Source: Diprion similis
Lineage: Eukaryota; Arthropoda; Insecta; Hymenoptera; Diprionidae
Reading direction: 5' to 3'
NCBI RefSeq assembly: GCF_021155765.1
Contig: NC_060118.1
Coordinates: 5,766,001 to 5,830,000 of the forward strand
DNA: 64,000 nt
Under the pieces are notes generated by a model, which ran no database searches, was not told the origin of the DNA, and worked only from the letters and a program-made list of their open reading frames with translations. Positions within the stretch are counted from its first letter, which is position 1. Each line of letters begins with the position of its first letter. Both the position numbers and the translations under genes were made by a program. Shown piece by piece: positions 28,557 through 54,077 of the stretch.

Positions 28557-31500
28557 ATTTTTTCGGGATATATTTATTTACGTTTGTGACGATAAAATAC
28601 CGCCAATATTTGAATATCCGTGCTCTGCAGTTACGAAACCCACACCGTTGACTACTTCACTTGAGAAATATTTTACTAGCCAAACTAATGACTTCTATGA
28701 ATTAACGTACAACGAAGGGTGGGATCAGTTGGAAGAACACTTGGGACCTGATCTTCTGCGGTTTGTTGAGATTTATCTAGTTTTTCAGATCAAATGAACA
28801 ATAGCATTTCCATATGAGTGTTTATATGAGAATTTTTGTAGTTTGTTTCTTTTGCTAACAAGACGTCAAACCTCTATAGTATTTTTTTTAATGATTACAG
28901 CATCCATGGTGAATAATTTTAGCATTTATGTTCATTATCGCTAATTACTATCGTACATTTGATCGTTAGTTAACGATCTGCTTTTGAAGTATTTATAAGT
29001 TGTATTGATTTGTACATTTATATTTTATATATATTTTTTTTGTTTTATAGATTCTGTCTCACTGAGTGTGTATTTGCTAGGAAAACAAATGCCGGTGCTT
29101 TTATGGTATCAAACTTATCAAATTTGCGCAACAAAATACCAGTCAACTCGTCTGAAAAACTAAACAAATGCTTTTATCACACAGCTAAATGCCAAGAAGG
29201 TAGTATTTAAATATTTAAAAGTGTCTTAATAAAATTTTGTAGACATGTATATTTATCAATTTCAATTAAGCAACAACAGGAGGGAGGACGTAATAACTGG
29301 CACATGATCTATACAAAGAATGAAATTTTCTTCACATTACAGAAAATACAGACGTTGTGGTCGTTTCCCAAGACGATAAGATTAGAGATTGGGAGAAGCT
29401 GCAGAAAAATCTGATTCACTTATTTTGTCTTGAGGAAATAGATATCTCGACGGATGCAAGTTTGTTCAAAACTTCGAATAGTCGAAAGTTTCCAGATAGT
29501 CATATACTAGTCAAGAAAAATAGTACGACGACTATATTTTCACAGGTCATCAACACTCGAGTAGGATGTAACAAAATTGTTGAGTATGAGGATTGCATTG
29601 AGCCGCTAGAGCTGGTGCTCAAGAAACTGAAGAAAGCTCATTCCAAATACGATTACGAAAAGGCGCTGAATAGACTGACTACTTCAAACGCAGTAGTTAC
29701 TAGTGGTGAAAAGACGATCAAGCACCACAATTCTGGAAATCAGCTACCACTTCCGGTCTTAAAAAAATATTTCACAAATATTTTTAACCATGTGATTCCA
29801 CGGGAATTGTTTGGTAGTAACAAGAACAAAAATACTGTGATAAAAGTGATTTGCCACTTGCTTGAAACACCTCAGTATCAGTCCATTAATTTGAAGTCAT
29901 ACATTCTAAAAATGAGAGTAAGGAAACTAAGCTAGACTAGAGTACATATTTAGAAAAGAAAAGAATGTGAATTACCAATGAAATGAGTTAATGATTCTTG
30001 TAAAGCACTGGAACTTGAAGTATTTAAGAAGAAGTAACTTTACAGTGAACTGACGATTTCATAAGAAGATAATTTTTTCAAGGTATGTGAAATCCGTTGG
30101 CTGGACAGTGTCAAGAACAGTGACGCACAATGGACAATATTGGGAAAATTACTAAAATGGTTTTTCAAAAACTACATACTAGAAATATTTCGTACTCAAT
30201 TATATGTAATGGTGACAAACAGTAAAAAGAAAATTTACTTCAAACAAATGGATTGGCAAAAACTGACCGCTGAATTTATCAAGAAAATGTGTCAGGACAA
30301 AGTTATCGCCAGAGTCAATGGCGTCACTACAAAGGTCTCCTGCGACGGTAGGTGGATTCTATTTCCAAAGAAGGATGGAGTGAGGCCTATTATGTCTCGA
30401 GTTAGGTAAGATTTTTTTTTAATTTTTCAATTGCTCATTGTGCAGACAAATTTGATTCAAGATTACGCAACGTCAATAGGGGCAGCGAAATAGGGGAATA
30501 TACAAAACTGGCTCTCTGCTTTCTGCAGCAGCTGCTCATGACAAAGTATGGGGAGTCAGGAAATCAAATTTTCATTGAAAAGTGGCGAAATCTGGTACAT
30601 AAATTTCGGAATGAAAAGAACAAAACTATGTACTTAGTGTGTTGTGATATCCAGAATGCGTATGGGTCCATAGATCAGAGTGAGTTTCTTCCTTCTACAA
30701 GTTGTTCAATGAGCAAAGTAAAAAATGTAAATCTCATTCTCTTAGATTGCAGTTTAATTGACGTTATTTTTTTATCAGATAAACTTCTGGCAATTGTGGA
30801 ATCACTTGCTAATTCAGCTGGTCCGCAACTGAACCTGAAATGGTATAAAATATGCAAAAATATCAAGGCAGTAAAGTCGGACTGCTCTAGATCCAAGAAA
30901 TGTTTCAGGTATCCAGATCTCGAACTACCGATACGCTCGAAATCAATATTTTCCTGCAGATCTGATAGGGTGGTCAAAGTCAGAACAAAAATGTTGCTTC
31001 GTGAAATTAAGAAAAATGTACTAATGCAGAATGTAGGTATTTCATTTACACGTAAATAAAGCTGGTAATAATCATAATCATAATAATGTCTGTACCGTAC
31101 TGTAGACTTGAACATAAACCAAGCTTTTAAAGTTGGAATTTGAAAACTGAAAGTGATGATTTGTGAATACTGAATGTTTTGTTACACGTTCTGTAATTAA
31201 AAATGAAAGATTTTTTTTTTTTATGAAAAAATTCACGTCGTTCTACAGATACTTATATTGAATCAAAGGTATTTACTTCAAAAAGGAATTGCTCAGGGAG
31301 CTATATTATCAACTGCGTTATGTGACTTGTATTATGCACACATGGTAGAAGCGAATATGGCAGAATTCAAGGATAAGGGTTTACTATGTCGATATGTCGA
31401 TGACTTTCTATTCGCAACAGAAGATAAAGACTCGGCTGAACGGTATGTGTTCAAAGTACAAAACAGGAATAATTCATAAGTTTGAGAAAATTGTATTACA

Positions 31501-40900: not shown

Positions 40901-41097
40901 ATGCAGATGAATATGCAATTGTCTATCACGTATTACGATGTTAGGTTATGATACTAATAAAGTTTTACGAGAAAAAACAACTTACTTCGGGATAATTCTG
41001 CCCAAAGGATTCTGAAAATATATAAATTAATTAGAGTATTTTGTGAAACGTTTACTGACGGTATGTAAGTTACCTTACCTAATAATTCTAAATTCAT
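37971..41097 (-). CDS. Rbbp5: Retinoblastoma-binding protein 5 (COMPASS/MLL core subunit)
   Basis: RBBP5 is a nuclear WD40 scaffold that, with ASH2L, WDR5 and DPY30, activates SET1/MLL histone H3 lysine-4 methyltransferases. Seven exons (41097-41079, 41011-40986, 40867-40695, 40282-40054, 39400-38945, 38691-38283, 38056-37971) join into 465 codons. The N-terminus MNLELLESFGQNYPE, the blades ISAHVHPVCSISWSRNGHKL, CIWDVLSGECDQKYRFPSPI and KKCCFSGDGEYVCAGSARQH, and the hinge FKELDENVEYEERESEFDLS are nearly as in vertebrates. The hinge includes the region that contacts ASH2L and the methyltransferase. The C-terminus is short and ends with KKGRPRLEHRKGK. The first coding exon has only 19 nt. The exon 3 donor is GC rather than GT. 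It is head-to-head with the Jerky-like gene and tail-to-tail with Cwf19l2. Confidence 0.97.
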
Positions 41098-41335
41098 TTC
41101 TCCTCATTCAATATTCTGTCAACAAATTCCTAACAAATTTTTGGTATCTGTCGATAGCAGGTATAACCGTAAACAGTGGTGTGAGTGTGTATTAAGGTGT
41201 GTATACCTTTGTATACTCAACCACGGTCCGTATGAAGCTTTCTACGGACAGCCAATCAGATATGCGTGAGGGAAAGCTTGATCGGGTATTCGTGTAGATG
41301 CAACCAATAGCTAGGTGTAGTCGTCATTGATAGAA

Positions 41336-41830
41336 CAAATTCATCTAGGGAATTCGAGTGACGTCAGCCCCTTACACTAGCAATTCAAGATCGAATTTAG
41401 TTCTGTCTGTGCTAAATCGTTTGTAGGTCATTTGCAGGTAATTTTTTGGTGATTTCGCGATGTTTTTGAGACAAGAGTTCAGTCGTTATTAATAAAACAA
41501 GTTTTTATCGTTTTAATTTTTGCGAATGTACCGTACCGGCCCAGCTGATCGCGAAAGCATCTCTTATGACATCACTCGAACTCGCTAGACGAATTTGTTT
41601 CATTAATAACTACTGAACTATTGACTTACAAATGTCAGAAAAACACTACAATCGCCTACAAACAATCTAGAATTAATTTCGCACAAGCAGAACTTAATTA
41701 GAACGCAAATTGCAACTATGAGGGGCTAACGTCACTCGAATTCCCTAATCAGATTTGTTTTATTAATAACAATTGAACTATTGACTTACAAACGACAGGA
41801 AACGACTTACAAACAGCTACAAACGATTAC
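41336..41830. repeat. Inverted/direct repeat complex in a divergent promoter region
   Basis: A segment at 41336-41505 recurs in inverse orientation at about 41566-41757; shared landmarks are GGGAATTCGAGTGACGT, AGCCCCT, AAGTTCTG or TAGTTCTG, TTTGTAGG, and GTTATTAATAAAACAA. A third partial copy at 41752-41830 repeats the TTTGTTTTATTAATAAC and GACTTACAAACGACAG part in the same orientation as the second. The copies include TGACGTCA-like (CRE/ATF-type) sites. The complex lies between the divergent Rbbp5 and Jerky-like starts. Confidence 0.65.
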
Positions 41831-42104
41831 AAATAGAATCAACTTATTCGGTTGTTACGGTATATACTTAAGTATACGGAGCTTTGTGTCTACATACATA
41901 CACCTACCAATAGCAAAGTCACATTGTATTTACCAAGCGTTTGGTGATCTCTTTACTGTCTAGCCAATGCGTCGATTTAATAACAATTGTTTACGGAAGC
42001 GATGGAAAAGCGAATTGTTTACTGGATACTGTCAAAACTTTAATTTGTGTACGCCTATAATTTTTATTACAATATACCGCAGCTACGAATCGAATAATAA
42101 GAAA

Positions 42105-44773
42105 ATGCAAGTTAGTAATGAAAATGAGTTAAAAGTCAGAAAGCGAAAAAACCTGACTGTCCACGAAAAGTTGAAAATTTTGAAAACACTAGACAACGAT
42201 GTTGAATCTTCGACAACGACTATTGCACAAGAGTATGGTATTGATCCAAGGACAATTAGAAATTGGCGACAGAATCGGCAAGAATTAGAAAAATTGAGCG
42301 ACACTAGATCGATGAAAATAAAACGAGTTCGAAAATCTCGGTTTGAACAACTTGAAAAAGCCTTGTACACCTGGTTTCAGGAAATTCGATTCAGAGGAGT
42401 CCCTGTCAATGGCCCAATTATCAGAGGTAAACAAAATCTGTACATTACAAATCATTTTCCAAAACCGCTACCTGTTTAATGCACCTTTCTACACGTAAAA
42501 CAAATTTTTATATTTTTGTATATATGATAGATATCAATGCTCATAATCAGAACTTTATTTTATTTCATCAACTAAAATTAATTTTAATTCATTGTCTAGC
42601 AAAAGCATTGGAACTGTCCAAGGCAATGGAAGATGGGACTATGATGAACTTTGTAGCAAGTGAAGGATGGCTAAGCAAATGGAAATCCAGATTTGATATA
42701 CAAAAACTTACTTCTGATAATAAAGCTGAAGATGAACCAGGTGACGAAATATTTGTAGAAGAGTTTCCCTTAATCATAAAGAAGGAAGAGCCTGGGATTA
42801 AAAATGTTCATGTCGACGAAAATGATTTATATTATCAAATGTTATCTGCATGTACTTCGATAGAGGACCAAGAACGTGAAGCTGTGCATTTTAAGCAAAA
42901 TAAAGTCCACAATAACAAAGCTGCCCCAGCAGAAAAAAATTTTATTCAAGAATTACCGATAATTGTAAAACAAGAAAAACTTTCTCAGAGCGAAATTTAT
43001 ACCAACGATGAAAGCAATTTAAATCACAAAGCGTTACCTTCAAATACTATGGCGAAAGAAAAAAATTGCCAACCTGCGGGCTCAAAACAAAGTAAGACAT
43101 GCAGTAACACAGTTGAACCAACAGAAAGAGTTTTTCTACCAGAATTTCCTGTAATTGCCACACAGGAGAATCGAACCGAAAACGAAATTTTAGACGCCAA
43201 TGAAACTGGTTCAAATTGTACAATATTATCACAAAAAGCTCCAGAGGGGGAAAATGATCCCATGGATACAAGTTTGATGCAAAGTAAGAACCACGACCGA
43301 TTAGCAGCTTGCTCTAATATAGCTAAATCAACGGAAAGAATTTTTTTATCAGAATATCCGTTGATAGAGAAAGCAGAGTGTGAAATTGTAAACACAAATG
43401 AAAGACAACCTTCGAGAACTTTGGCAGAGGAAAATGATTCCGAAGACCTAAAATTTATTAGACGAAATGATAGCCGAGTCAGGGTAACAGGTTACAATCA
43501 TATCGAAATAGCAACAGACAGAATTTTTATACAAGAATATCCATTACGAGGCAAGGATGAAGAGCTTGTACCTAGTCAAATTTTTAATGCCACTGAAGCT
43601 GATTTATATTACAAAATGCTCCCATCTCGTAATTTAGCGGAAGAAAAAGATCTAGAAGCTATGGCACTTCATCAAAATAAAGACAGAGTTACAGTAATGG
43701 CCTGTTACAACTCAGATGCTTCGTTAAAACTCCCATTGATCGTCATTGGAAGGTACCCTAAACCCAGGGCTTTGAAAAATATGTCTAAATCCACGCTTCC
43801 GGTTTACTATACGGGTGAATCAAGCGCAATGATGACCATTAATCTTTTTAAAATTTGGTTCAAGGAAGTATTCGTACCCCAGGTTACAACTTTTTTAAGA
43901 GAACGTGGTCTTCCTTTAAAAGCTGAGCTTTTAGTTAACAATGCTACGTCTGATTCTAGGAATGAAGTTATTTCATTGAATGATATCAAAGCATATTATT
44001 TACCACATAATAAAACATCTGTCGAGCTGTCAGATCATGGAACGACTGATAACTTGAAAAGACATTACACATCGGCGCTTCTGAGGTCAATTTTATATGC
44101 CCAACAAAGTGGAACTTCAGTTGGTACACATTTGAAGTCTGTAAATATCAGAGACGTCATATATTGGTTGAGCGACGCTTGGGACGAAGTAAGTCCTAGT
44201 AAAGAGATCGTATGCCATCAAAATCCACTGTCCGACAATCAGATATGTGAGATAAAGACCGAAACCACAAACTTGAATCAAGGCGTAACTGATCAAGATC
44301 TTTTGAATCTTTTGCAACAAATTGATAGCTATAAAACTGCAAAAAAAGAAATTGTGCATGAGTGGATTAAAAACAATGATAATGCGTTCGCTGAAATGCC
44401 GACGAATGAAGAAATAATTAAAATGGTTGAGGAGAACGATGAACTTGGTAAATGAACTTGCACAGTACTTTGTAAAAATATTTTCAGTATGGTTTTTGTA
44501 CATTCATTTACGAACATAATTTTTGACAAATTTTTAAATACACAATATATATATATATATATATCTCTTTCTTATTGTTTTTCAGAAGAGGACGAGGCCA
44601 ATTTAGGCGAGACTGTGGATGTGAAACCAAAAGATGTAGTAACTGCAGCTAATACAATCCTTGCATTCTTCGAAAGACATAGTTTTTTGACAAAGGCAGA
44701 ATTAGCCACGATAAGAAAGGTCAAACGAATAGCCATGCAAATAAGAATTTCGCAACAAGTTTCAAAGAGTTAA
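42105..44773 (+). CDS. Domesticated CENP-B/Jerky/Tigger-like transposase-derived protein
   Basis: This gene derives from a pogo/Tigger-class DDE transposase of the CENP-B/Jerky group; the present role is unknown but probably DNA binding. Three exons (42105-42426, 42600-44447, 44586-44773) join in phase into 785 codons; an upstream in-frame ATG at 41967 would add 46 residues. Visible in order: a CENP-B N-terminal helix-turn-helix (LTVHEKLKILK...AQEYGIDPRTIRNWRQ), a Tc5-type HTH (FRGVPVNGPIIRAKALELSK...SEGWLSKWKSRFDI), five tandem 61-70-residue repeats each beginning with IF(V/L/I)xE(F/Y)P-type sequence (42749, 42938, 43130, 43340, 43523), then the transposase core (DRVTVMACYN...PKPRALKN...VYYTGE). 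The first two catalytic positions look changed (NATEADLYY, LLVNNATSD), the third remains (LSDHGTTDNLKRHY). A typical Jerky-type C-terminus (DLLNLLQQIDS to ATIRKVKRIAMQI) closes it. No terminal inverted repeats flank it. Confidence 0.85.
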
Positions 44774-46971
44774 TAATATATAATATTCCACTTACGTACA
44801 TATTCATGTAAATACAAGTTAATAATTAATTTATAGAAATCTTTTTTTTTTCGAGGTAAAGTATTTTATGTTACGATTGTAAATATTTTACATTTACATC
44901 TGTTGTTGCAGCCCGCAATTTTACTTGCTTATATTTGGGGACGAGTTATAAAATGCAGGCATTTCTTAACTTTCCGTTTTCTAAAATTTTAGTCTTCTGC
45001 AGCCTGTAGCCAAAAAACTAATTAACAAAACACTGCAGAAGAACATTCATTGTGCAATACGAGAGTTTAGGAAAATAAAAATTTTATTAGAAACTCACCA
45101 GAAACTGAGAAAATAAAATTGTCTCAGTACGTCAAGGACATATCTACTGTGGACCAGGAAATGATATTTCAACAAGATTTTTTTCACACTCATTCAGAAT
45201 TGGGTTGTAGAAATTACCTTTCATTGGCACTGCAGCTACGGTGAGTAAAAAAATTAGTAAAATAACCAGGTATCGCGTCATTCAGTCCCAATGTTTTCTG
45301 TTTTGGATGGGGAATTTGCAATAACAGATTCGCACAAAGCATTGAAAAACTACATCACATCTGGAACAAATACATACGTCGAAAACTAATCCATTTTTGA
45401 CGGACGGTATTTATCTAATCATAGATGAAGGTATCTTGAGATTTTAGAATAAAAGATTGCTATATAATATGTGTATTACTTCAAGTCTCTAAATATTTTT
45501 ATTGTATTTTATTACATTTTGATCTTGTTTCTACATACCTACATCATACACACTAGTACCGCCTGGATGTAAAATAGTACTCATACAATATAATAATGTA
45601 TTTTCTGTATACATTGTTAACATACTTTACAAATTTAAATTAACTGGAGCATCTAATATAATATATGTTCAATATAATGTAAACTCTGAAAGTATAATAT
45701 AAATGCAATATTATTCTCTAAGAGAAGAAAACAAAAAATCGAAACAAAAAAAAAAAAAAAAATTCTCGTTATGTTTGTTATTTAATACAGTGTATAAACA
45801 TTGGCCCCAAAAATACATATCGGTGTTCTCAAATACATATCTAACAGTTTTAGCATATATTATGACATCTATATTTCATGTATATTGTTTATATACACAC
45901 TATAATATAAAGATGCAGAGGATGATTTGTTCGCCTGTGGTTTCGAGTTCATTCGTGTTGGGCGTTACTATCAAAACCTGTTCGTAGAATTAAGTCTTTT
46001 CTGATAAAATTGAAATTGGACTCAAACAGGAGGAATCATAAGATATTGTGGACTAAACGGCTTCAGTTACTTCTCTGTCGAAAGTAGCAAATTAATAAGT
46101 TTCTGTAATAACAATAAATGCCATGGAGTCTTTTACACTTCAGCAAATAACTGTGATATAATTAATCACGAAATGGAGCAATATGTACAGACCCATGAAC
46201 ATATGCGGAACTAGTCTTTTACTACATATTATATTACATTGTGTATATATATGCATAATTGTATATTTTATTGTGTACACATATAAACTTCACAATGATT
46301 ATCATGAAGACTTATCGTCGACATACATGTCTTGACATTCTGTATATTCGATTGATTAAACTCATTATTTATTCCTTTACCCGATATCAAGTCAGGTACG
46401 TTTCAAAACACACCATAAGGATTATTGATTATGATCCTTGAGACAAGATATTGAAATCAACCGCTATTCTCACGACCATTTGTTTTGTGTTTTTAGTTTT
46501 GTAATGTAATACATAACTTGACGTCAATGAAATACATTTCGTTTCAAAGTTGTTAGGATATATAAATAATTATAAACAAATTTATATATCGCAATGCAAG
46601 TACCTCGATAGATACTATAATATTGAATTCTCATCGGTATCTCAACAAATTTCCATGCTGAAGAATTACGCTCCTATTTTTATCTGTGAGAAGGGTACTA
46701 CTCTCTTAGTCTCTATCCAACCGTTCATCTTCTCTTACAAAATAATAGATGAAAAATAATATGTGAAAAGAGGAAAAAAAAAATTTGAAAACGGAGTGGG
46801 TTCTACAAATTGGCGAGAGAATAATGAAAAACGGTTTATGATATTTATAATATTGGTGCATATAACTTACTGTTCAAAATGATGAATGAATTTTTTTTGT
46901 TAACGTTTAAATAATCTTTCAAATAACTAATGTTCATTTATTAATTCCTGATTTTTCTTCTTTCTCATTGG
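44774..46971. other. Intergenic region, no gene seen
   Basis: Beyond the Jerky-like stop, AATAAA at 45074-45079 is a possible poly(A) signal. The rest is AT-rich with short (AT)n and poly-A tracts and open frames under 100 codons without domains. Confidence 0.5.
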
Positions 46972-50000: not shown

Positions 50001-53000
50001 GGCAAGCAGTTGTTGTCTATGCATTTGTAAGAACTCCGTTTGAGTCTTTGGGGTGTCAGAAGATTTTTGCATCATTATGAAATCTGATCCCCGTGGGTCG
50101 TGATACTGATTCTGTCTATGCATTTGTAGAAATTCAGTTTGAACATTTGCCGGTGATTGTTGATGCGACAAGTCTCGCTTGATGACAGAATTTTTACGCT
50201 CCAGTTCAGGAGTCGAAGCTCTACTGCTACCAGTTGACGCATTGTCGTCTGCGTTTTCTGGCGTTGATTGTTGTAATCGATCTAAGCCCTCCTGCAAATA
50301 AAACAAAGTATCGTGAAACGTTTTTCATTCTGAAATTGACTGAAAATTCAGACTGGCATTATCAATAATAAGATCAATAAAAATAACACTGAACCGTTGA
50401 GCTTGAAATAAGTGACGACTTTTCTTTTGCAGTACAAACCTTTTGGGACTCGTCATAGCTCAACAGTTGTAAGCTTGGAGGTAGTTTGGCATGGAATGAA
50501 ATTTTGTTAACCCATTCTTCTAGATCCTGCGCGCTGGGTGCCAAGAACAAAAACTCTGAACCATCAGAACACTTTAGCCTGAAAACGTTTTTCTTCTTAG
50601 TATAATCATCGGCTCTTTCGCACGTGGCATTGAAAATTGTGATCGGTGCTGTAGCTGCTTTGCTGGCTGAAAAGTCTTCTGTATCTTTGAAGAAGCATAG
50701 CAGTTGGCCGCAAAGTACTGAAAAATATTTAAAGAAATAAAGTCAGATTACTGTTAGGGCTTCTGATTAATATCTACATATATTCAACAAACGTTCTTAA
50801 TTAAGGAACAATGTAAATCAATTATTACCTGTATAATACTGCTTCCAAGAGCGTACAGCTGCCTTTTTGCCAGCACTCTGTAGCTCGTGTTTCCTTTCAA
50901 GTAGACCTTGTTTTTCGACCGGTGGCAAAGTGTCCAAGTTTTCCATCCGCTGGTGTTTTCTAAAGCTTTGAGTTCGTCTTCTGGTTGTAAAGCTCGGTGT
51001 TCGTTTAGGCTTTTTCGTATCCACTTTCATGCTCTCAGCACGCTTGACGTCAGTGTTACCTACAATACAAATAATAATTCATATGAAATTATTTATTTAA
51101 GGCACAGAAAAAAGATGACAATGCTGACGGATATGATATATTTTTAATTCAACGATAGTTATGTATTTCCAAAAAGTTACTCACTCCTCCTCAGTCGGTC
51201 GCCGAACATGTGCGAAATGCTGTGAGATTTTTGGACAGTCGCATTCTCTGGAGGTTCTACCATGGTTGTACTTTTTAGAGGTGGTAGCCTGAAATTTGAG
51301 TGAAATATTATGAGCTTTGCTGTGCTAGATGCTTTTGTAGAATTTGTTGATGAATTATCGCTTGAAACAGATAAATATAAAGATAAAAGAAAACCCAATC
51401 ATCAGTGCAGTATGTATGAAGTGCTATGTATAAGTAAATACGTTACCTTGGCTTAAAGAAACTGCTTTCGGTCTGTCGCAGTCTGTCCGATGACGGCTCA
51501 GGTTTGACATCTTTAAATTCTGGCTCTCCAAAACTGAACATGCATTGCCAAGCAAATACCCCAGAAAATATCAGTGCATATACCGAGCAATCTTGGTAAT
51601 TTTTCACCACGAATAACAACTCGGAATACACGCGGAAAAACGATTAAAGTATCATTTGCGGATTGAATTTTTAAAGAATCAAATGCATATTATTCTGGTT
51701 CTGTGAATGCATTAACTCGATAGAGATGAAACATAGTTTCTTTTGTCAAATGCTGCTTTTTGTCTTTCAGCATCTCTCCGGGAGCATTGACTTTTTAATT
51801 TAAATGGATTACCAGAAAATTTTATTCAAAACGAAATTATTGACGAAATATATAGAATAACTTTTGCTAAAAAGGGTGAAGAAAAAAATTCAACATTTCG
51901 TATGATACTTTGATTTTGGATACCATTAATGGAAAATCTCATCAATTCAACTTATAAGCCCTTGTATCAATCTTTATTGTTTAGAATTGACTGACAAAAC
52001 TTTAGTCGCATTACTCCAGCATTTCACTATCGTGTATTTCGTTATTGTTATTCAAAGTTCATTGTTATTCATAAGCGTGATCCAGATTCAAAGTGATAAG
52101 ATTAGATTCTCAAACTTTCTTCGTCTTAAACCACTCATTTTAATGAACATGCATGGGAATTGGGAATTAAAGGATATGTGCATTTTGTGCATTTTAATTA
52201 TTGACGTCAAAGAAAAGACGCAAAAAATTATTAAAAACAAAAGTGTGATGCTATGAACGAGAAAACAAATCTTCAAACCAATCCATTGTGCATGTAAAAT
52301 ATGCCAAGAGTGATATTCAACCGAATTAACAATAATCATGCAGTATTATTTGTAATTGCAAGCAATTGGAGAATGCAAAAAGTAAAAAAACAACTCACAA
52401 AGCACAAAAGTATATCTACCTGTTTATTGACTCGTGTTGTTCGGAATTTCCATTTAATTCTTGATGAGGTACACGGTGAGGACTGTCTAGCAAACGTCTG
52501 CGTTCTTCCTCTCGCTTACGCTCCTCTGTAATCCTCTGTACCTCTTTGCGTTTCCTCTCTTCAATTCGAGCCTTTTCTATTCTCTCTTTCTCAGCATGTC
52601 TCGCAGCAAGTTCAGCTTCCTGTTGTTTTTGGAATGCCTGTTCAAGCTGAAAACAAGAGAAGAAAGTTTATTTAACAAGTTATCTAGTCGTACACTCATC
52701 ATTTTCCGGCATCAAAATTATTGTTTCATTCCTATCAACGAGTAGATTCGTTTCCATAAAGAAAGCAACAAAGTCATCAAGTTTTTGTTTATAATTATGA
52801 AATGTTTTCATAACACACAAAAAACTCACCATTGTAATCCTCCTCAGCGCGCTGAACTTTTCTTCTTGGGCTTCGATTGTCTTTTCGAAATCCTCGTGTT
52901 TCCTTATCAAATCTTCAACCTGTGGAATGGTCTCTCCCAATTTACCATCGTTCAGCATCGGTTCCCTGCTCACTATCCAGTTCTCCAGCATTTCAGCTTC

Positions 53001-54077
53001 TCTCTTAAACAATTGCGTGTCCAAATTCTGTTCGTAAATAAGCTTTCTCTGCTCCCAAGTATCGTTGAGCAATTCCTTTCTCTGCTCGAGAACAGATATT
53101 TTATCCTCGATCTCTTTGGCTAAGAAATGTCCCTGTTGAATTAGGCCTTTGCCGGTTTTAGAAAACTTGGCAAACGCATCTCGCCGCGTGTCAATCTCAG
53201 CTTTGTACTCGTTGTGTCTTGAAATCAGGGATTCAGCTCCAGGCACATCTCTTGCAAGCTCAGGTGCTGTCACTTTAGCAACCATTTCATTTATCCACGC
53301 CATCAAGTCTCTGTACTCATCAAAGTAGGCTTGCAGTTGTTCAGCTTGAGCGAGCTTTCCTCTGCGTTGAGCAGCCTTTTCTAACAGGTCATTCCATGAC
53401 TCTTCCGCTTCCTCATGCTTCACTGCTATATGTTCACGAGCGTCTGGAAACAATTCTGCCAATCTCGAAGCTTCTGCCATCACAGACTCGACCTGAAATG
53501 AAAATCGATAAATGAAAGTAGTTTTTATTGTAGTAAAAATAATTTAAAACTTAGAATGACGAACAACAGAGATACGTGTAAAAAAAAGTTTGAAAAGCCG
53601 GGTAAAATGTTTTGGAATAAATTATCTACATCTAAATAAGTAACAATGAATTATAGTAAATTGGGAATGAAAGATTATAGAGAGAGTTTCAGAGATATTA
53701 AAGATATACAAGAAAAATTGAGTCATCTCTTCATTGAATAGCTAATTTCTTCCCAAATTTCTTTTGAATTGATTTGGCCGGTTATTCAGAATTTGAGATA
53801 TGCGTGATTGGAAATAATATGAATTTTAAAATCTTTGTGACAAGTTTCTACAGAATATTTGATGTATCACTACTTTTGAATTTCGCTCAACTTTTATGTA
53901 AATCGATGAAGCCGTTTTCCCTCAATTCATTATGCAACACTTTTTGCGTATAAACATGTATAGATTGTAAAATGGTGGAAAAAGGGTTCTGCGGCAGATG
54001 AAATATTTTTTATCGAAGCAATGTTTTTGCATTGAGAAATACTGTAGGTAGTACGCTTTATAATCTCCATTAAAGAC

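Follow-up and report, generated by a model that had tools for sequence, protein, structure and literature searches.

A five-unit repeat of the first catalytic segment in a pogo/Tigger-derived gene of Diprion similis

In most descriptions, a domesticated transposase has either kept its domains or been fused with new ones, as POGK with KRAB and SETMAR with SET. A gene in a 64,000-nucleotide stretch of the 269-Mb Diprion similis genome (contig C14, positions 5766001-5830000; hereafter, the window) raises the question of what happens when a piece of the enzyme itself is multiplied. The initial annotation, made from the letters alone, held that the segment carrying the first catalytic Asp of a Jerky/Tigger-derived protein was present in five tandem copies. 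Is this repeat real, from what did its unit arise, and what could the copies be doing?

The gene and its five-unit repeat

The gene lies on the + strand and was modeled from the sequence, with introns placed by their GT/AG splice signals, as three exons encoding 785 amino acids. Exon 1 (42105..42426, amino acids 1-107) encodes a CENP-B_N domain and the start of an HTH_Tnp_Tc5 domain, and it ends at a phase-1 intron whose position is shared with two other genes of the genome, L010 and L011. The remainder of HTH_Tnp_Tc5, the five units and the DDE_1 core are encoded by exon 2 (42600..44447), and a C-terminal tail by exon 3 (44586..44773). Both DNA-binding domains score above their Pfam cut-offs (CENP-B_N at amino acids 12-61, 25.7 bits with a cut-off of 21.2; HTH_Tnp_Tc5 at amino acids 80-143, 61.4 bits with a cut-off of 22.2), and so does the core (amino acids 468-641, 43679..44200, + strand; 104.7 bits with a cut-off of 22). 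By membership in these three families the gene is pogo/Tigger-derived and encodes a Jerky/CENP-B-like protein. Its catalytic places hold Thr (amino acid 439), Asn (amino acid 554) and Asp (amino acid 586) versus Asp, Asp and Asp in L012, another relative in the genome; read by eye, they hold Glu, Gly and Asp in L010 and Asp, Asp and Glu in L011. The intact triad expected of an active pogo/Tigger transposase is absent from the window protein. The layout first proposed, with DNA-binding domains before the repeat and a DDE core lacking two of its three catalytic residues after it, was therefore the one found.

Other features of the window include a Telomerase_RBD match (29324-29932, + strand; 32.2 bits, cut-off 25), followed by a frame (30406-31059) that has no Pfam match and by eye resembles a continued telomerase gene; TTAGG arrays are present in the genome, as fits an insect. 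Spectrin repeats were detected at 52683-53543 on the - strand (119.7 bits), and together with similar frames seen by eye up to about 61 kb they are probably a spectrin gene.

The five units fill the protein between residues 152 and 468, with lengths of 63, 64, 70, 61 and 59 residues, all on the + strand. Unit 1 (amino acids 152-214, 42731..42919), unit 2 (amino acids 215-278, 42920..43111) and unit 3 (amino acids 279-348, 43112..43321), whose terminal DRLAACSN is similar to the core's second strand, were recognized both by shuffling of unit pairs and by a profile of relatives. Unit 4 (amino acids 349-409, 43322..43504), which has lost about 10 central residues, was recognized by its likeness to the other units. 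Unit 5 (amino acids 410-468, 43505..43681) is joined to the DDE core and contains the Thr that replaces the first catalytic Asp. Each unit includes one copy of a short motif on the same strand: FVEEFPLI (42752..42775), FIQELPII (42941..42964), FLPEFPVI (43133..43156), FLSEYPLI (43343..43366) and FIQEYPLR (43526..43549). The aligned unit starts, at amino acids 158, 221, 285, 355 and 416, reproduce the five motif positions and the spacings of 63, 64, 70 and 61 codons already noticed in the initial annotation.

All ten pairwise local alignments of the units beat 2000 shuffles each: nine pairs gave p = 0.0005, and the pair of units 1 and 4 gave p = 0.0045. A self-comparison of exon 2 in non-overlapping 60-amino-acid tiles, the kind of check that had been suggested for internal repeats, was also significant: the best score was 100, and the shuffle maximum was 59 (0 of 50 shuffles reached it). 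The same comparison in pieces of eight relatives (176-366 amino acids) revealed no clear internal repeat, as between 10 and 179 of 200 shuffles attained the best score, the lowest count being that of L012. Identity among the units is 22-45% and Tandem Repeats Finder detected no DNA array at the repeat region; the copies are therefore diverged, and for this reason an assembly error is unlikely. With 60 acidic and 37 basic residues, the region carries a net charge of -23, in agreement with the acidic module originally described. These results indicated that the five-unit repeat is real.

Relatives in the same genome and the origin of the unit

The same genome has at least 67 DDE_1 matches, and 25 places, including the window gene itself, match the exon-2 protein. 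Five of the DDE_1 elements (L026-L030, on contigs C1, C1, C2, C8 and C14) have equal scores and open frames of 713 amino acids, and across about 2.8 kb (56 of 70 bins of 50 bases) L027-L030 have at least 90% identity to L026; the five probably represent a recently moving Tigger/pogo-like transposon.

Ten related loci were examined and eight were aligned (L010-L014, L016, L018 and L020); L015 and L017 were excluded since their frames before the core are broken or unreadable. Four of the eight were used for the first-strand comparison and for one unit alignment. The segment occurs once in every one of the eight, as had been stated for the family, and the single segment of L012 is matched separately by units 1, 2, 3 and 5. 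A profile built from the eight single segments, with the window gene left out, gave 15.6, 40.4, 11.8 and 64.4 bits for units 1, 2, 3 and 5, values reached by 0 of 1000 shuffles in each case, while 11 control tiles taken elsewhere in the protein gave at most 0.3 bits. Unit 4 gave 2.1 bits, which 54 of 1000 shuffles equaled, and a scan of the whole protein reported four stretches and not five. Because the relatives' profile misses it, the membership of unit 4 comes through the other units, above all units 3 and 5. The count of five copies thus holds in that all five are related, with the qualification that unit 4 is without its center and is tied in by the other units only. As judged from these comparisons, units 1, 2, 3 and 5 descend from one ancestral segment directly and unit 4 does so through the others. 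No second multi-unit gene was found among the best candidates in the genome, where the four matches consisted of two to the gene itself and two to single segments.

In unit 3 the profile match continues into the second-strand region (ACSN), and a comparable tail can be made out by eye in unit 4. For this reason the duplicated piece appears to comprise the linker helix together with the first and probably some of the second strand, the helix and strand names being those of the family. The unit does span the place of the first catalytic Asp, as proposed, but it is larger than the motif-I segment to which it had been assigned. Tandem duplication of the segment around that residue, the central claim of the initial annotation, is sustained by the pair shuffles and by the relatives' profile.

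The position of the expansion in time can be approached through gene structure. When the best candidates in the genome were scored, the coding DNA had no match but itself; the remaining DNA matches all lie in a dispersed upstream repeat (window 41400-41865). This repeat, at 41323-41866, has 121-nt inverted arms and 107 further genome matches and stops about 240 bases upstream of the ATG of the gene. Inspection of the eight relatives by eye showed that the first intron of L010 and of L011 agrees in residue and phase with that of the window gene; the intron of L012 is about 5 residues earlier, and L013, L014, L016, L018 and L020 have no intron at this junction, their frames reading through. The second intron, also judged by eye, is in phase 1 in L010 and L011, as in the window gene. 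The tail exon is homologous to the last exons of both: 0 of 2000 shuffles equaled its alignment with either one, and 1 of 2000 equaled that of L010 with L011. A tblastn search with the tail exon found L010 at 2e-8, and L011 did not appear at E < 0.05. A tree, itself weak, grouped the window gene with L011 at only 82/85 and showed no firm grouping for most of the rest.

Single copy, an open frame and introns, the latter recognized by their splice signals, are features of domesticated genes, and the window gene has all three. On the simplest reading, it and L010 and L011 would be old paralogues, and the expansion would have followed their split and hence domestication. Since the coding DNA is found once, and L010 and L011 share both introns and have one unit each, the expansion is probably post-domestication. 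The earlier proposal of duplication after domestication is consistent with these intron-sharing, single-unit genes, from which the timing itself is inferred.

Conservation among the copies and its possible explanations

A codon alignment of the five units was made, the end columns of unit 5 being placed manually. The eight columns F-phi-x-E-[FYL]-P-[LIV]-I are the best-kept motif, with a pN of 0.24 and a pS of 0.59; pN/pS was 0.80 in the remainder, 0.84 in the first-strand region and 0.75 overall, at synonymous sites that look near saturation between units. Of 64 windows, the motif has the lowest pN. Random column sets were as low in 173 of 20000 cases, a figure uncorrected for choice; this rank overstates its strength because the motif was picked as the lowest of the 64. 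Its F, E and P are identical in all five units. The Pro is encoded by CCC, CCG, CCT, CCG and CCA in units 1 to 5, four different codons, and is missing at the aligned place in seven of the eight relatives, so that it looks derived. In contrast, the first-strand signature, retained in the four relatives of this comparison, has decayed in the units. What is best kept is the F..E.P motif and not the catalytic segment that the initial annotation had emphasized, and selection on this motif is suggested. Nonetheless, the Glu that follows the catalytic Asp is identical in all five units and unit 2 scores 40 bits with the relatives' profile; therefore, the helix motif is not the only thing that has shaped the copies. 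Units 1 and 2 also retain the first catalytic Asp. A psi-K-x-E docking motif, which we take to be SUMO-like, was set aside, since only these two units have it after the conserved motif. A charge-hydropathy plot put the units on the disordered side and did the same with the DNA-binding domains and the segments of six of the eight relatives, so it does not discriminate.

We propose, with about even confidence, that the gene is a domesticated pogo/Tigger transposase in which the expanded segment forms a multivalent array of docking sites on a dead enzyme that is bound to DNA. In this pathway, the ancestor would be an old domesticated transposase of the Jerky/CENP-B-like group. Within exon 2, a stretch of some 60-70 codons that begins at the linker helix, spans the first catalytic strand and probably reaches into the next would have been tandem-duplicated to five copies, most likely later than the loss of cutting activity. 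Unit 5 would still start the RNase H fold, and units 1-4 would have mostly lost the catalytic signature and retained F-phi-x-E-[FYL]-P-[LIV]-I. The two helix-turn-helix domains would bind DNA, the five motifs may present a multivalent docking surface to a partner, and the dead core may act as a scaffold.

The main rival to the docking array is that a linker has been lengthened by extra units that are tolerated and have no function; generated by slippage or unequal crossing-over, they would be decaying, with an open frame and solubility as the only things selected for. The low identity among units, the overall pN/pS at near-saturated sites and the missing center of unit 4 are all as this explanation would have them, but it does not account for the identity of F, E and P in five of five units despite four Pro codons, nor for a Pro that looks derived, being present in one of eight relatives. 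We consider it a serious though tentative possibility.

Another explanation, which we find unlikely, treats the units as spare first strands for the RNase H fold, able to swap into the core of their own molecule or a different one and to produce chains or switchable states. Each unit covers the presumed linker helix and first strand, a second-strand-like remnant is seen in unit 3 (by profile) and in unit 4 (by eye), and units 1 and 2 have the first catalytic Asp that unit 5 lacks, with the adjacent Glu in all five. Against these points, the strand signature has decayed more than the helix motif in units 1-4, and the second catalytic Asp is also lost, because of which a swap would not restore cutting. 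A related form, equally doubtful, would have five exchangeable helix-strand modules competing to complete the fold, with chaining as the outcome or with the free copies acting as a multivalent reader on DNA.

That the locus is a decaying transposon copy or pseudogene with chance repeats seems very improbable. The genome does contain relatives with broken frames (L013, L014, L015, L016 and L017), and the catalytic residues are lost, but the 310 codons of the repeat stretch have no in-frame stop, where a Markov null had a mean of 20.7 and was stop-free in 0 of 20000 runs. Both introns and the tail exon match two other genes, and the coding DNA matched only itself among the best candidates scored. 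Terminal inverted repeats were looked for at 41000-45600, and none of 17 inverted pairs encloses the gene with one arm upstream of the ATG and its partner beyond the stop. Last, the notion that there is no true repeat, and that acidic linkers are alike by chance, has almost no probability left: acidic composition inflates chance scores and the relatives' profile alone misses unit 4, but shuffles that preserve composition were beaten, which rules it out for units 1, 2, 3 and 5.

If the docking-array proposal is correct, the locus makes it possible to trace how a dead enzyme may turn into a multivalent scaffold in chromatin or regulation. Here part of the catalytic domain itself is multiplied in tandem, and a short motif, not the catalytic signature, is best kept. 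The single-unit sister genes in the same genome are built-in controls. The exchangeable-module explanation, if true, would mean that enzymes have a further, new way of becoming scaffolds.

Comparison with known systems

A phmmer search of solved structures found no match for the window protein, and NCBIfam, a prokaryote library, gave none. The viral contigs scanned held no relatives from outside the genome. The relatives' profile matched 1hlv, the DNA-binding domain of CENP-B, at 2.4e-8 among solved structures, through a stretch that comes from the relatives' rows and not from the window row. In the same search abp1 appeared at 0.88, and two chains of icaR, at 0.018 and 0.071, were taken as chance. 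The window protein shares the Pfam family CENP-B_N with CENP-B, in which, to our knowledge, there is no five-unit array.

Among the full-text literature listed, mostly open-access and available in part, no Tigger-type protein with such an array was found, which does not prove its absence; the available portions of PMC7325037, PMC8472432 and PMC10027918 do not mention one. JRK, JRKL, TIGD2 and other Tigger-derived vertebrate genes are described in passages of PMC7386202 as combining CENP-B_N, HTH_Tnp_Tc5 and DDE_1, with a catalytic triad that is partly conserved in several of the proteins. The 31 residues that separate the second and third catalytic places of the window protein are inside the DD29-36D spacing of Tigger. 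The closest parallels are in the same genome: L010 and L011 (contigs C8 and C10) are like the window gene in their DNA-binding part, segment, core, both introns and tail exon, and unlike it in having one unit each. The Tigger-derived vertebrate proteins that appear in the same passages of PMC7386202 have about 524-670 amino acids, whereas the window protein has 785, with five units and a gene with two introns.
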